Assembly (NCBI RefSeq): GCF_027942295.1
Contig: NZ_CP101416.1
Span: 4,326,501 to 4,390,500 of the forward strand
DNA: 64,000 nucleotides
Source of the DNA: Pseudanabaena sp. Chao 1811
Lineage (GTDB): Bacteria > Cyanobacteriota > Cyanobacteriia > Pseudanabaenales > Pseudanabaenaceae
Reading direction: 5' to 3'
Below the pieces are notes generated by a model. The model did no database searches. It saw nothing but the letters and a program-made list of their open reading frames with translations, and was not told the DNA's origin. The translations under genes were made by a program, and so were the position numbers. Positions within the stretch are counted from its first letter, which is position 1. Each line of letters begins with the position of its first letter. Shown here in pieces: positions 10,633-15,353 of this stretch.

Positions 10633-10701
10633 TCAAAGCAGTGCTTTGCCATCTCTCTAAACAGCAAAAGGACAAAGCACTGCTTTGTCCTTTTGCTGTT
10701 T
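10633..10701. terminator. Short palindrome plus 21-bp perfect stem
   Basis: CAAAGCAGTGCTTTG (about 10634-10648) is followed by a perfect 21-bp inverted repeat, 10659-10679 against 10681-10701, with a one-base loop. The stem includes the last codons and stop of the downstream small gene. It probably terminates that gene; the two-palindrome layout recurs at 131 and near 16019 and 44257. Confidence 0.65.
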
Positions 10702-10888
10702 ACTTCATCTCGTTATATTTTTTGTTGAACTGTTTCTTAGCCTGTTCATAAACCTCAAGTGTAATCTGCTGAAAGTTGTTATCTTGAGCGTATTTTTCAA
10801 TCTTTTTAAAAGCAAAAGGTCTCACAAAAAATGGGATATCCTTGAGTTTCGCTTCAGCTTCGGCAGTCCATGTAATCTTTTCACTCAT
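10700..10888 (-). CDS. PCP-reductase-domain small protein
   Basis: This 62-residue protein matches the small domain found at the C-terminus of the ChlB subunit of dark protochlorophyllide reductase (PCP_red family). The visible signature is ITWTAEAEAKLKDIPFFVRP, then the helix AFKKIEKYAQD and ITLEVYEQAKKQF. Stand-alone copies are common in cyanobacteria and some are linked to photosystem biogenesis; the role here is inference. Several acidic and aromatic residues suggest a compact soluble domain. No chl gene is adjacent. A strong stem-loop overlaps its stop codon. Confidence 0.85.
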   Translation of the reverse strand: MSEKITWTAEAEAKLKDIPFFVRPFAFKKIEKYAQDNNFQQITLEVYEQAKKQFNKKYNEMK

Positions 10889-10963
10889 TGATTTTTATTT
10901 ATATTTCAGTTAGATTTTTGGGTGGAGTACTTAATACTTTACAAATTTTAAAGCGTTGTCTGG

Positions 10964-11010
10964 CTTAATGTAGTGTCTTCCCGCCGAAGGCGGGAAGACA
11001 CTACATTAAG
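10964..11010. terminator. Perfect 22-bp stem-loop at the end of padR
   Basis: CTTAATGTAGTGTCTTCC begins the left arm (10964-10985); the right arm is 10989-11010, with loop GAA. It takes in the last codons and stop of padR. It is likely a terminator for padR, although no long U-tract follows. Confidence 0.7.
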
Positions 11011-11557
11011 CTTCGACCTCATGCCAAGTTTCTAAAAGCTCTAACGCTTCATTACACCAATCAATCCAGCCTTGCTCAAAGTTAATGCCTCGGCGCAAGG
11101 TCAAATAGGCGAAACGATATTCTCTCTGGCAGTCTTGGGGTGAGCTAAAAAAATTACGCTCGATCGCTTGATAAATTTCCAATTGTTGTTGATGCAGTTG
11201 GCGATGATCTTTGATTTTTTGGATGGTTGCTTCTTCAGGAATTAAATAACCTGCATAGATCTTAAGCAAAAACTCATCTTTGCTCGGTGCAATATCGCTA
11301 GCTTGGAGAAGCCATGTTTTCAAGTGGGACAAGCCTAAACTTGTCACTGAAAAAACTTTTTTATCGGGTCTGCCCTCTTGGGCGATCTCTTCGGCTGCAA
11401 TCCAGCTTTGTTGTTCTAGTTTGGTTAGCTCTCGATAAATCTGTTGGTGGGTAGCTTGCCAAAAAAATCCTACCGAGCCATCAAATTGTTTAGCGAGGTC
11501 ATAACCACTTTTTGGTTCTTGAATTAGTGAGACTAACAGAGCGTAAGCAAGAGACAT
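11006..11557 (-). CDS. PadR-family transcriptional regulator
   Basis: This is a 183-residue DNA-binding protein. Residues 1-80 form the winged helix typical of PadR (LAYALLVSLIQEPKSGYDL, then HQQIYRELTKLEQQSWI and the wing GRPDKKVFSVTSLG). The rest is a long C-terminal dimerisation helix bundle (Vir_act_alpha_C type), as in the larger PadR class. PadR proteins repress divergent genes and are released by small phenolics or other ligands. Here the gene is divergent from a carotenoid-oxygenase operon, and a 19-bp inverted repeat lies in the shared promoter region, so that operon is the likely target. The ligand is unknown. Confidence 0.93.
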   Translation of the reverse strand: MSLAYALLVSLIQEPKSGYDLAKQFDGSVGFFWQATHQQIYRELTKLEQQSWIAAEEIAQEGRPDKKVFSVTSLGLSHLKTWLLQASDIAPSKDEFLLKIYAGYLIPEEATIQKIKDHRQLHQQQLEIYQAIERNFFSSPQDCQREYRFAYLTLRRGINFEQGWIDWCNEALELLETWHEVEA

Positions 11558-11586: not shown

Positions 11587-11623
11587 TAAGTAGCTAGACC
11601 TGCGGCGCAGGTCTAGCTACTTA
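11587..11623. repeat. 17-bp perfect stem-loop in the padR upstream region
   Basis: TAAGTAGCTAGACCTGC (11587-11603) pairs with its reverse complement at 11607-11623 across GGC. It lies between the padR start and the operon promoter, in the 5' leader of padR, so it could affect padR mRNA. Confidence 0.65.
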
Positions 11624-11654: not shown

Positions 11655-11709
11655 TTGACATATGCACTTAGTTGAGTATACATTATTTCGTATATTCAAC
11701 TAAGTGCAT
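11655..11709 (+). promoter_or_regulatory. Promoter with overlapping inverted-repeat operator (candidate PadR site)
   Basis: A good sigma-70-type promoter is present: TTGACA at 11655-11660 and TATACA at 11677-11682, 16 bp apart. Over it lies an inverted repeat, ATGCACTTAGTTGAGTATA (11662-11680) against TATATTCAACTAAGTGCAT (11691-11709), with one mismatch in 19 and a 10-bp spacer. A dimer bound here would block the promoter. The link to PadR is inference from divergence and position. Confidence 0.8.
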
Positions 11710-11776
11710 ATTAACTTGTTTGAATAGAGCCTAGCTTTTATCCAAACAACTCACCACGTTACAGGAGACTAAAATC

Positions 11777-12793
11777 ATGAATGCTTCTCAGGACGGACTT
11801 CACGTTATTTTTGGTACAGGGGCATTGGGCATGGCGATCGCCAAACAACTACTTGCCCAAGGTAAAAGGGTGCGAATGGTCAACCGTAGTAATCGAGTCA
11901 AGCTGCCTCAAGAAGTGGAATTGATAGTGGGCAATGCCGCTGATCCACATTTCTCTGAAACTGTTTGTCAAGGTGCATCGGTGATCTATCACTGTGCAGG
12001 GACAAAGTACAACTTCAAAATTTGGCAACAGGAATTTCCTCCTTTGCAACAGGGCATTCTCGCAGGGGCGATCGCTAGTGGTGCGAAGTTAATCTATGGC
12101 GATAGTCTTTATGGCTATGGCAAAGTCAATGCACCTATGCGCGAAGATATGCCCTATGCCGCGCAAACCAACAAAGGCAAAATGCGGGCAGCCCTTGCCG
12201 AAACCGTCATGGATGCCCATCGCACAGGCAAAGCACAAGTAGCGATCGCAAGAGGCTCTGATTTTTATGGTGAAGGTGTTCTTGGTTCCGTCTTTGGCGA
12301 TCGCGTATTTATTCCTGCCATTCAAGGCAAGACTGCGGAGGCGATCGGTAACTTAGATTTGCCCCACAGCTATACCTACATCGGTGATTTTGCCAAGGCG
12401 ATGATTATTCTTGGTGAACGGGAAGAAGCGATCGGTCAGGTCTGGCATGTTCCCAATGCGCCCACGATCACCACAAGAGCAATGCTGAATATTCTCTTTG
12501 AGGAATTAGGATTACCCGCCAAGATGAATGGCATGGGCAAAATGATGCTGCGGATTGGTGGAGTCTTCATTCCTGAAGCCGCCGAAACCATCGAAATGTT
12601 CTATCAATTTGAGAATCCATTTATCGTGGATAGCTCTAAATTCGTCAAAGCCTTTGGTGATATCGCTACTCCCCATCGCGAAGCCATTCGCAATACAATT
12701 GCATGGTATCAGCAATATTTACAAACACAAGCTGAACTAGAGCAAGTAAAAAGCGAAGTTCGCAAGTCTGTTCAGAAAGTTGCTGCAACCTAG
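11777..12793 (+). CDS. NAD-dependent epimerase/dehydratase family protein
   Basis: This is a Rossmann-fold short-chain dehydrogenase of the extended type, 338 residues. The nucleotide-binding glycine motif is FGTGALGMAIAKQLLAQG near residues 12-29. A hydride-transfer region with a Tyr is less clear: LIYGDSLYGYGK carries the usual Tyr/Ser area, but no perfect YxxxK follows it. The C-terminal part (HSYTYIGDFAKAMIILGE) is the standard substrate-domain motif. A ribosome site, CAGGAG, precedes the ATG by a few bases. It is the first gene of a four-gene operon ending in a carotenoid oxygenase, so its substrate may be an apocarotenoid or another isoprenoid; that is inference. Confidence 0.88.
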   Translation: MNASQDGLHVIFGTGALGMAIAKQLLAQGKRVRMVNRSNRVKLPQEVELIVGNAADPHFSETVCQGASVIYHCAGTKYNFKIWQQEFPPLQQGILAGAIASGAKLIYGDSLYGYGKVNAPMREDMPYAAQTNKGKMRAALAETVMDAHRTGKAQVAIARGSDFYGEGVLGSVFGDRVFIPAIQGKTAEAIGNLDLPHSYTYIGDFAKAMIILGEREEAIGQVWHVPNAPTITTRAMLNILFEELGLPAKMNGMGKMMLRIGGVFIPEAAETIEMFYQFENPFIVDSSKFVKAFGDIATPHREAIRNTIAWYQQYLQTQAELEQVKSEVRKSVQKVAAT

Positions 12794-12825
12794 AGCAAAT
12801 TCCAGCCAGTTCTCATCACAAATCT

Positions 12826-13284
12826 ATGACTATCATCGATCCTAGCCAAGTTCCTAGTCGCACAGGTTCTAACTATCCAGATTGTTTTAAGCCAGTAGTA
12901 GCGGGACGTGAAAAGAAACGCCTCGGCGATGCCGCAGGAATCAAAAACTTCGGAGTGAACTTGACCACCCTTGCACCGCAATCTCTTTCTGCACTCCGCC
13001 ATTGGCATACCAAACAAGATGAATTTATCTATGTCCTATCGGGAGAATTGACCCTGATTACCGATGCAGGCGAATCGATTTTAAAGTCAGGTCAAGCAGC
13101 AGGATTCCCTGCGGGTGAGGCGAATGGGCATTGTCTCTATAACCATACTAACGAGATCGCAACCTATCTCGAAATCGGCGATCGCACTCCCAATGACTCA
13201 GGAAATTATCCCGATGACGATCTTGTTGCTATTGCGACTGAACAAGGCTGGCAATTTACCCATAAAGATGGAACATCTTACTGA
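12826..13284 (+). CDS. Cupin-domain protein
   Basis: This 152-residue single cupin is probably a small metal-binding beta-barrel. Motif 1 is HWHTKQDEFIYVLSGELTL, with both histidines and the glutamate that normally hold the metal. Motif 2 is FPAGEANGHCLYNHT and keeps the third histidine region. Homologues are usually annotated only as cupin or as possible sugar/phenolic binding proteins. It sits 32 bp after the epimerase gene and 70 bp before the next, in a plus-strand operon. An enzyme or a ligand-binding protein would both fit. Confidence 0.88.
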   Translation: MTIIDPSQVPSRTGSNYPDCFKPVVAGREKKRLGDAAGIKNFGVNLTTLAPQSLSALRHWHTKQDEFIYVLSGELTLITDAGESILKSGQAAGFPAGEANGHCLYNHTNEIATYLEIGDRTPNDSGNYPDDDLVAIATEQGWQFTHKDGTSY

Positions 13285-13354
13285 GCATCAATATGCTCCC
13301 GTTCCCAATCTAGCAGGTGTCTAAAATATTCCGACTAAACCAAAAGTAAAAATT

Positions 13355-13867
13355 ATGTCACAGGTATTTTCTGGACGGTTTACAGCTCAAACTAATGAGC
13401 CATTCGTAGTTTTTTTGATTGGGATGAGAGTAAATAAATTCTGGTCTTTATCAAAATGGATACCAGTCGCAACAGCCATGACTCCAATGCTCCAAACCTT
13501 ATATAAAAATCCTGAAAAAGGATTTTTAGGAGGAGAAACTTTCTATCGATTTTCACCCACAACTACACTTTTATTGTCTTACTGGCGCTCCTTTGAAGAT
13601 CTAGAAAGCTTTGCCAGAAATCCATCTGAACCGCACCTTGAAGCATGGAAAAAGTTCAATCAAGCTGTCGGTAATGACGGTAGTGTCGGTATATGGCATG
13701 AAACCTATTTGGTAGATGCAGGAAAATATGAAGCAGTTTATAACAATATGCCCAAATTTGGATTGGCGGCGGCTACTGAGCATGTCCCTGCTATAGGCAG
13801 AAAAGAAACTGCCCGTCGGCGTTTAGGTGGTGACAATGACCCCGCAGTTCCATCACCTCAAAACTAA
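13355..13867 (+). CDS. DUF4188 protein (dimeric alpha-beta barrel-like)
   Basis: This 170-residue protein matches the DUF4188 group, related to haem-dependent aldoxime dehydratase-like and monooxygenase folds. Typical features are FVVFLIGMRVNKFWSLSKW near the start, the GFLGGETFYRFSPTTTLLLSYWRS strand-loop-strand (here quoted in part), and a conserved histidine in EPHLEAWKKFNQ and in GIWHETYLV. The biochemical function is unknown. It is third in the operon, just upstream of the carotenoid oxygenase, and may supply an oxidative or dehydrating step; that is inference. Confidence 0.85.
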   Translation: MSQVFSGRFTAQTNEPFVVFLIGMRVNKFWSLSKWIPVATAMTPMLQTLYKNPEKGFLGGETFYRFSPTTTLLLSYWRSFEDLESFARNPSEPHLEAWKKFNQAVGNDGSVGIWHETYLVDAGKYEAVYNNMPKFGLAAATEHVPAIGRKETARRRLGGDNDPAVPSPQN

Positions 13868-13900
13868 AATTTACGATCCTAATCTTTTACGGCAATAATC

Positions 13901-15322
13901 ATGACTACAACTGTTCAAAGACAATCATCTTGGGCAAAGGCGATCGCTAAACCAGCGACCGAGTTTCCTCTCACCCAACTCTCAATTGTTTCTGGCAAAA
14001 TACCTGACAATCTTAAAGGTTCTCTCTATCGTAATGGTCCTGCTCGACTAGAACGTGGCGGAATGCAAGTAGGACATTGGTTTGATGGTGATGGCGCAAT
14101 TCTTGCCGTGCATTTTGCAGAAGGGCAAGCCCGTGCCACCTATCGCTATGTGCAAACGGAAGGATATCTCGAAGAAGAAAAAGCCGACAAACTGATTTAT
14201 GGTAATTATGGAATGACGGCTACAGGCTCATGGTGGCAGCGTTTCGGGAAAACATCAAAGAATGTGGCTAATACTTCTGTTATCGCTTTACCTGACAAAC
14301 TCCTTGCTCTATGGGAAGGTGGCTTACCCCATGCGCTCGATTTGGAAACTTTAGAAACCTATGGCTTAGAAAATCTGGAAGGATTGGATCATAAGCGCTC
14401 CTATTCAGCACACCCTAAGCGAGATTCCCAGACTGGCGAGATCTTTAACTTTGGCGTTTCCTACGGCAAAAATGCGACGTTAAATCTTTATCGCAGCGAT
14501 CGCAATGGCAAGCTTATCAAAAAGAATCAAGCAGCATTGCAAGGTTTGCCAATGATTCATGACTTTGTATTAGCAGGCGATTACCTGATTTTCTGTGTAC
14601 CGCCATTGCGGATGAATCCCTTTCCTATCTTGCTGAATCTCCAAAGTTATAGCGATTCTCTAGCATGGAAGCCTCAAGAGGTTACAGAAATCTTGGTATT
14701 TGATCGCCATAATCTCGAACTGGTTAGTCGCAATATTGCTGAGCCTTGGTTTCAGTGGCATTTTGGTAATGGCTATAGCGATCGAGATGACAATCTAGTA
14801 TTTGATCTCATCCGTTATTCTGACTTTGCCACCAATCAATTTTTAAAGGAAGTTGCTACGGGTAAAATCAAAACGCCAGCCAAGGGAACTCTCTGGCAAA
14901 TACGCCTCAATCCTCAAACAGGTTCATTGATCGAATCCGCAGAATTAATAGAACGCAGTTGCGAATTTCCTATTGTTGCCCCTGATCAAGTTGGTAAAAA
15001 TTCTCGCTATACCTATCTATCTGTCCGCCATTCTGAAGATCAACAAACAGAATTATTTGATGCGATCGCCCGTTACGATTACCAAACCAATACTGTAACT
15101 GAAGCTGATCTAGGTACAAATCGCTATCCAATGGAGCCATTGTTTGCCCCTGATCCCACCAATCCTGACAAAGGTTATATCATTACCGTCGTCTTTGATG
15201 GTGATCGCGAATGTTCTGAAGTGTGGATTTTTGATAGCGATCGCTTAGATGCTGAACCTGTTTGTCGCCTTGCCCTACCAAGCATCGTACCAATGGGATT
15301 TCACGGCACTTGGCGATCGTAA
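13901..15322 (+). CDS. Carotenoid cleavage oxygenase (RPE65 family)
   Basis: This non-haem iron dioxygenase cleaves carotenoids or apocarotenoids at a polyene double bond. The 473 residues match the family length, and all four iron-binding histidines are in their usual contexts: SYSAHPKRD (H171), PMIHDFVL (H220), WFQWHFGNGY (H287) and MGFHGTW (H468). Other hallmarks are LYRNGPARLERGG and HWFDGDGA. The substrate cannot be read from the sequence: retinal-forming, apocarotenoid and stilbene-type activities all share these motifs. It ends the PadR-linked operon and is followed at once by a strong terminator. Confidence 0.95.
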   Translation: MTTTVQRQSSWAKAIAKPATEFPLTQLSIVSGKIPDNLKGSLYRNGPARLERGGMQVGHWFDGDGAILAVHFAEGQARATYRYVQTEGYLEEEKADKLIYGNYGMTATGSWWQRFGKTSKNVANTSVIALPDKLLALWEGGLPHALDLETLETYGLENLEGLDHKRSYSAHPKRDSQTGEIFNFGVSYGKNATLNLYRSDRNGKLIKKNQAALQGLPMIHDFVLAGDYLIFCVPPLRMNPFPILLNLQSYSDSLAWKPQEVTEILVFDRHNLELVSRNIAEPWFQWHFGNGYSDRDDNLVFDLIRYSDFATNQFLKEVATGKIKTPAKGTLWQIRLNPQTGSLIESAELIERSCEFPIVAPDQVGKNSRYTYLSVRHSEDQQTELFDAIARYDYQTNTVTEADLGTNRYPMEPLFAPDPTNPDKGYIITVVFDGDRECSEVWIFDSDRLDAEPVCRLALPSIVPMGFHGTWRS

Positions 15323-15353
15323 AATAAAGGGAGTACGACGTACTCCCTTTATT
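15323..15353 (+). terminator. Terminator of the carotenoid-oxygenase operon
   Basis: AATAAAGGGAGTAC (15323-15336) pairs perfectly with GTACTCCCTTTATT (15340-15353) across GAC. It begins at the base after the stop codon. Confidence 0.85.

Follow-up and report, generated by a model that had tools for sequence, protein, structure and literature searches.

The 64,000-nucleotide stretch of Pseudanabaena sp. Chao 1811 analysed here (the window) contains, at positions 11777-15322 of the forward strand, four open reading frames (ORFs) that encode an epimerase, a cupin, a DUF4188 protein and a carotenoid oxygenase (CCO), with the gene for a PadR-family regulator divergent from this operon. A four-gene operon had been proposed at this place from the letters alone (hereafter, the sequence-only reading), and its ORFs, strand and Pfam families are as that reading described them; the intergenic gaps are 32, 70 and 33 bases. 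DUF4188 and PF13826 (Monooxy_af470-like) are two names for what we take to be one family. The locus comprises the following features.

11006..11557, minus strand: PadR-family regulator of 183 aa, proposed local repressor (PF03551, E 6e-11; PF10400, Vir_act_alpha_C, E 8e-28)
11655..11660, plus strand: TTGACA -35 box, joined to operator 1, with an 18-base spacer to TACATT
11660..11679, plus strand: operator palindrome 1, ATATGCACTTAGTTGAGTAT (inverted-repeat scan and motif model)
11677-11684, plus strand: candidate -10 from a promoter scan, which is by itself no evidence (it gave 3 promoter-like sites, where shuffled sequence gave 10.4 on average)
11692..11711, plus strand: operator palindrome 2, ATATTCAACTAAGTGCATAT (inverted-repeat scan and motif model), 32 bp from operator 1, start to start
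11777..12793, plus strand: epimerase or atypical short-chain dehydrogenase/reductase (SDR), 338 aa (PF01370, E 7e-11)
12826..13284, plus strand: single-domain cupin, 152 aa (Cupin_2, PF07883, E 4e-15)
13355..13867, plus strand: DUF4188/PF13826 Monooxy_af470-like protein, 170 aa, a local insertion, with invariant His94 and His115 (PF13826, E 1e-44)
13901..15322, plus strand: carotenoid oxygenase of a non-ACO cyanobacterial subfamily, 473 aa (RPE65/carotenoid oxygenase, PF03055, E 7e-138)
about 15323-15353, plus strand: 14-bp hairpin after the CCO stop codon, a possible operon end, seen by eye and absent from the terminator-scan list

Between the PadR and epimerase genes lies a 22-bp inverted repeat (11660-11711, 95% complementary), absent from the sequence-only reading, which can be read as two imperfect 20-bp palindromes of the form ATATnCAnnTAnTTGnATAT, the first base of operator 1 being the last base of the TTGACA box. 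A position weight matrix trained only on the window and on loci L108-L129 was tested on other PadR loci; an earlier matrix had been seeded with sites already seen in loci that it scored, and the held-out test is the fair one. In 22 of the 25 held-out loci with a PadR of 45-58% identity (L022, L023, L024 and L027 among them having come from a DUF4188 query, and L071 and L152 from the family of the window's strain), paired sites 26-34 bp apart scored above all 200 dinucleotide shuffles, with weak second sites in L234 and L023 (scores 3.7 and 6.3). Among 21 further test loci, with PadR below 45%, the paired sites of the Chloroflexi loci did not beat the shuffles. Across the 44 PadR loci with a PadR of at least 45% identity and a pair score of at least 0, TTGAC abuts the first listed site in 40 and the second site in two more.

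The paired site is also closely tied to PadR genes. Within 1.71 Mb of fetched loci, some overlapping and all retrieved because they hold these genes, 51 of 52 paired sites lie near a PadR ORF, the remaining one preceding the epimerase in L122. When the promoter/operator composite was searched for in 38 genomes of the family (the window's own and 37 others in the collection) at 0-1 mismatch, all 25 matches, in 24 genomes, fell at a PadR gene or its remnant, and the reversed control gave 3 matches; at 2 mismatches there were 9 matches, five at efflux-linked PadR paralogs, one in the G408 locus and three in G393, G396 and G400. In a search of the window's own genome for single sites, the window's operator pair accounts for the only match at 0 mismatches and for two more strands or sites at 1 mismatch; two other places match at 1 mismatch (67391 and 2237233). 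A wider regulon in this genome was rejected, as no other two matches lie 26-34 bp apart; palindromic 2-mismatch matches at 326879 and 3209875 fall inside coding sequence. The regulator thus has the features of a PadR-type local repressor, namely PadR and C-terminal domains, a divergent target and a palindromic operator over the promoter, and the PadR switch posited by the sequence-only reading is backed by the conserved pair: on the evidence of the sequence, PadR very probably controls the operon through this predicted operator.

Around the PadR gene, two long perfect inverted repeats were observed, at 10963-11011 (23-bp arms) and 11587-11623 (18-bp arms), the latter followed by a T run and resembling a terminator or a small mobile repeat. 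Directly downstream of PadR, at 10700-10888 on the minus strand, a 62-aa PCP_red protein (protochlorophyllide reductase subunit B C-terminal domain, E 1e-18) is encoded; this gene is near PadR in many family loci as well.

The gene content behind the switch varies widely within the family. A CCO ortholog of at least 55% identity occurs in 26 of the 38 genomes, and all 26 loci were read. In 23 of them, PadR and the CCO operon are divergent; this does not hold for L116, L130 and L131, of which L131 is a 3.1-kb contig. Intact cupin genes occur in 18 loci and remnants in three (L119, L122, L123); for the epimerase, the numbers are 12 and two (L113, L124). DUF4188 is present in the window's own operon alone (1/26). 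Other genes occupy the operon elsewhere: a Flavodoxin_2 (flavodoxin-fold) reductase in five loci (L110, L111, L122, L128, L129), DUF1963 in four (L112, L115, L117, L121), an Mpo1-like protein in two (L114 and, below the Pfam cut-off, L128), a membrane protein of no clear family in two (L121, L126) and an aldehyde dehydrogenase in one (L122). These assignments come from Pfam for the inserts of L110, L112, L114, L121 (membrane protein), L122, L126 and L128 (Mpo1-like), the other members having been assigned to those by BLAST. In L071 and L127, nothing lies between PadR and CCO. Locus L122 has three operator pairs: one precedes the reductase, another the epimerase and the third the aldehyde dehydrogenase, beside a 59-residue PadR remnant. 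Viewed as a whole, L122:3982-10084 carries three operator-led units in a row, the PadR remnant and a broken cupin, and has the appearance of a fossil of cassette merging.

The junctions around DUF4188 are informative. In L108 and L109, which have the CCOs nearest to that of the window (the closest at 94%), the cupin stop and the CCO start are 23 bases apart and DUF4188 is absent; relative to these loci, the end of the window's cupin has been rewritten at the DUF4188 junction. Judged by these alignments, DUF4188 at the window is a local insertion or replacement. Its nearest relative (78%), the sole other DUF4188 among the 38 genomes, is in G390, of another genus of the family, in an operon with a PadR 58% identical to that of the window and with Coq4-like, Mpo1-like (just under cut-off) and PLP-decarboxylase genes. 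The sequence-only reading had named scattering of the four genes in relatives as an outcome that would speak against a small pathway, and the comparison divides its case. Epimerase and cupin are not scattered inside the family: all 13 epimerase matches (in 13 of the 38 genomes) lie in the CCO locus, as do all 18 intact cupin matches of at least 80% identity, two cupins at 47-51% (G390, G391) lying elsewhere. The exact set, by contrast, is not conserved, and the fixed four-gene pathway has to be given up. The four-gene order arose locally, in a locus whose genes are shuffled, and is one form of a modular arrangement whose constant part is the predicted promoter/operator switch, the accompanying genes being variable.

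These data also bear on the possibility that the operon makes an apocarotenoid signal or pigment, CCO releasing the apocarotenoid and the epimerase, cupin and DUF4188 protein elaborating it. Retention of CCO beside a dedicated regulator in 26 of 38 genomes would suit such a pathway, as would the constant co-localization of epimerase and cupin, where present, with CCO. However, a defined product should need a defined gene set, and only PadR and CCO are near-constant, L071 and L127 having nothing else between these two; moreover, no gene for a transporter or receptor was noticed among those inserted. We consider biosynthesis improbable.

Outside the family, a CCO at E 1e-90 or better was found in 89 of 373 phylum genomes, including two from the genus of the window's strain. 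Among the CCO loci read there with their flanks, PadR lies within three ORFs in 1 of 20 (L186), and a PadR search added two more PadR-CCO pairs (L237, L239). DUF4188 matches occur in 15 of 386 phylum genomes; in seven of the eight other phylum genomes with a near-full-length DUF4188, the gene faces its own PadR, so that outside the family, too, the set of four is not fixed. Among DUF4188 loci from named genomes, a PadR homolog adjoins in 10 of 28, divergently in nine. Two further arrangements were observed at such loci. Coq4-like genes (PF05019) directly adjoin PadR in two cyanobacterial DUF4188 loci (L023:7188-7859 and L152:10087-10767), and on a contig labelled as a Chloroflexi metagenome-assembled genome (L026:1057-2517), the gene directly after DUF4188 encodes a homolog (46%) of the window's epimerase, which links the two families a second time.

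Outside the family, the PadR search of the 373 genomes returned 19 matches with E-values of 2e-49 or lower and identities of 45-53%, and all 19 loci were read. Among these 19 best matches, with the weaker G032 (45%) and G215 (46%, partial) left uncounted, a full-length PF13826 protein faces PadR in seven (G125, G005, G068, G350, G308, G011, G167), a short ABM-fold protein in five (G338, G352, G039 and G300, PF13826; G091, PF03992) and a CCO in three (G060, G289, G296). The 3.5-kb locus of G032 (L227) has operator-like sites and no known partner. On a PadR tree that left out 10 near-identical rows and placed L186, L237 and L239 on long branches, the CCO label needs four changes, at least two of them by well-supported branches, the figures for the ABM label being seven and four; thus, targets have changed under one regulator clade. 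That one PadR faces either CCO or the PF13826 family fits a common type of substrate, short of proving it. Distant PadR paralogs (40-43% identity) are divergent from HlyD/RND efflux genes, an assignment made by Pfam for L153, by BLAST for L241, L242, L244 and L245, and by ORF sizes only for L154-L157; this arrangement fits hydrophobic ligands. Several of these efflux-linked loci bear a related operator, TTATACAACAAGTTGTATAT-like. The PadR Npun_R1304 was rejected as a counterpart, being tied to envelope genes in the accessible part of PMC7660261, and the literature searched yielded no paper combining PadR, cyanobacteria and carotenoid oxygenase.

The partner counts have to be set against a plainer account, by which unrelated genes land in the intergenic and operon positions that follow a repressible promoter and co-location says little about joint function. 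High turnover of gene content, the stacked units and PadR remnant of L122, and the presence of DUF1963, which has no known role, would all be expected under it. Nevertheless, an ABM-fold oxygenase or a CCO is what PadR faces in 15 of the 19 loci outside the family, several of the exchanged genes encode redox or carbonyl enzymes, and genes of the Flavodoxin_2, Mpo1-like and Coq4-like kinds turn up repeatedly beside PadR in different genera. Loose cargo of this kind is, in our estimation, quite unlikely.

CCOs cleave conjugated chains, and the window's enzyme matches the PF03055 profile with a four-His metal site and second-shell Glu residues. Its His171, 220, 287 and 468 align with His183, 238, 304 and 484, and its Glu139, 355 and 412 with Glu150, 370 and 426, of the Synechocystis enzyme ACO (PDB 2biw), positions that we take to be the iron-site residues of ACO; by this alignment, the metal site is intact. 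Orthology to ACO was rejected, the genome's other CCO scoring 544 bits to 2biw versus 245 for the window's. The accessible text of PMC3299332 offers no placement of the window's CCO subfamily. As for the other two enzymes, HpnA and OleD were rejected as identities of the epimerase, which scores far below the NCBIfam cut-offs; among solved structures, 3gpi alone is related to it at E 1e-6 or better (32.5 bits). The nearest solved structure to the cupin is 3i7d, deposited as a sugar phosphate isomerase (E 1.5e-36).

The DUF4188 protein scores 151.6 bits against PF13826 (cut-off 25), as a match shared by all 28 relatives, and a single-sequence search returned no solved relative. A model built from the 28-sequence alignment (mean pLDDT 86, pTM 0.79) has an ABM-type ferredoxin-like fold. 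Aldoxime dehydratases provide the structure matches that cover most of the model (3a17_B, at Z 10.4 over 140 residues, and 7f2y, at Z 10.1 over 144). Matches to short ABM proteins extend over 84-105 residues at Z 8.3-10.6, the top row among them; Foldseek, too, ranks aldoxime dehydratase (Oxd) first. Searched with the DUF4188 profile, PDB sequences gave two matches under E 0.01, both aldoxime dehydratases (4e-4 and 6e-3, with single-domain values of only 0.1 and 0.29), and 22 of the 28 members match the Pfam haem-dehydratase model at E 0.01 or better. Membership in the aldoxime dehydratase family itself (PF13816) was rejected, the score being 21.5 bits versus a cut-off of 25 and covering residues 70-131 only. 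Thus, the modelled DUF4188 protein resembles the haem-binding half of aldoxime dehydratase. His94 and His115, each invariant in 28 of 28 members, fall opposite residues 299 and 320 of 3w08 by a manual count along the alignment, in which the distal Ser219 is not paired. In OxdA, His299 is the proximal haem ligand and His320 a distal functional residue, according to the accessible part of PMC4835899, which carries no mention of DUF4188 or PF13826. Model and alignment together suggest that DUF4188 may bind haem, a proposition on which we are evenly divided. No paper with both Fma-ABM and heme, and none joining DUF4188 with carotenoid oxygenase, was found in the literature searched.

PF13826 takes its name from af470 (Fma-ABM), an enzyme that cuts the polyene of prefumagillin oxidatively (PMC7020470, PMC11727611, in the parts available). 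In the available part of PMC11727611, Fma-ABM and SmcC4, a member of the CCO family, are presented as functional counterparts, and a partner role for an aldehyde dehydrogenase is discussed. The link to polyene or apocarotenoid chemistry drawn by the sequence-only reading is thereby supported.

A response to xenobiotic phenols or quinones would accommodate part of the same evidence: PadR would sense an aromatic acid or quinone, and the operon would detoxify aromatics, CCO acting as a stilbene-type dioxygenase and DUF4188 as a quinone-forming monooxygenase. PadR is named for the phenolic acid response, the exchanged genes include the Flavodoxin_2 reductase and Coq4-like proteins, the ABM fold is common to DUF4188, ActVA-Orf6 and SnoaB, and PadR paralogs face efflux genes. 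Nor do NCBIfam models separate the two chemistries for the window's CCO (carotenoid 163 bits, lignostilbene 151 bits, all far under cut-off). Single-sequence scores against solved enzymes, in contrast, favour ACO (245 bits) over lignostilbene dioxygenases (111, 106 and 92 bits), and the eponym of PF13826 cleaves a polyene. On balance, we regard an aromatic response as unlikely, if somewhat less so than biosynthesis.

We give roughly even odds to the operon being a PadR-repressed system for polyene cleavage and clean-up, with the exchanged genes looking more like clean-up than a biosynthetic line. PadR would hold the divergent operon shut by binding the two 20-bp palindromes, 32 bp (about three helical turns) apart, which overlap the operon promoter. 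A hydrophobic ligand would lift repression, most likely a conjugated polyene or its oxidation product; a carotenoid, an apocarotenoid or a polyene from outside are candidates. CCO and the DUF4188/Fma-ABM-like protein would then cut the conjugated chain, and the other genes would process the products, here the SDR/epimerase and cupin, in relatives the flavodoxin-fold reductase, aldehyde dehydrogenase and others. The core would be regulator, operator and usually one chain-cleaving enzyme, the rest being plug-in genes exchanged among strains. Repression, ligand, substrate, haem and the order of steps are what we infer here. Of the small pathway envisaged by the sequence-only reading, PadR control and the polyene connection are retained.

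Several observations weigh against this proposal. No oxygenase faces PadR in 4 of the 19 loci (G101, G170, G185, G010), and the scheme offers no obvious role for DUF1963, the cupin or the epimerase. The paired motif is absent from three of the 25 held-out PadR loci (L233, L235, L240), and among the 21 test loci with PadR below 45%, paired sites of several efflux-linked paralogs, weaker-scoring, still beat the shuffles; the motif alone is therefore no marker of polyene enzymes. In the window's own genome, the single-site search at up to 2 mismatches gave 35 matches versus 20 for the control, so that a single operator site is not specific. The short ABM partners are without the second His, with Asn in its place in all four PF13826-type proteins aligned, and Fma-ABM is remote, its likeness to DUF4188 running through the PF13826 profile and not through direct alignment. 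Binding, expression and enzyme activities are, moreover, deduced from sequence.

A bolder version of the polyene-cleavage proposal, tentative and on the unlikely side, joins these elements. PadR and the fused promoter/operator would form a socket for alternative polyene-cleaving enzymes (CCO, the DUF4188/Fma-ABM type or, as here, both), PadR would sense a polyene or its cleavage product, and cassettes would recombine via the shared operator, as the three in L122 might illustrate. In that case, DUF4188/PF13826 proteins would be haem enzymes not yet recognised as such, half the size of their relative aldoxime dehydratase, and would offer a second metal-based route to the cleavage of carotenoid-type chains. 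With these results, an unnamed four-gene operon becomes a testable regulon with a defined operator, the little-studied DUF4188/PF13826 proteins gain a regulator, a partner enzyme and a definite hypothesis of haem binding, and a way opens to finding what induces carotenoid-type cleavage in cyanobacteria.

The locus can be compared with four known systems. Like PadR-family local repressors, it combines PadR and Vir_act_alpha_C domains, a divergent gene and palindromes over the target promoter, but here the targets are CCO or PF13826-type oxygenases and two 20-bp sites 32 bp apart are joined to TTGACA. With Synechocystis ACO (2biw), the window's CCO shares the CCO/RPE65 family and metal-site His and Glu residues at aligned places, whereas it belongs to a different subfamily and lies inside a PadR operon. 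Aldoxime dehydratase (Oxd; 3a17, 3w08, 7f2y) has in its C-terminal haem-binding half the fold predicted for DUF4188, with the His pair aligned to its haem-ligand and catalytic histidines, yet DUF4188 is half its size and scores under the PF13816 cut-off. Finally, the window protein matches PF13826, as in the polyene-chain cleavage systems Fma-ABM/af470 (fumagillin) and Lim18 (limocrocin) in the parts of the sources available, but its gene stands beside CCO under PadR and not in a polyketide cluster.

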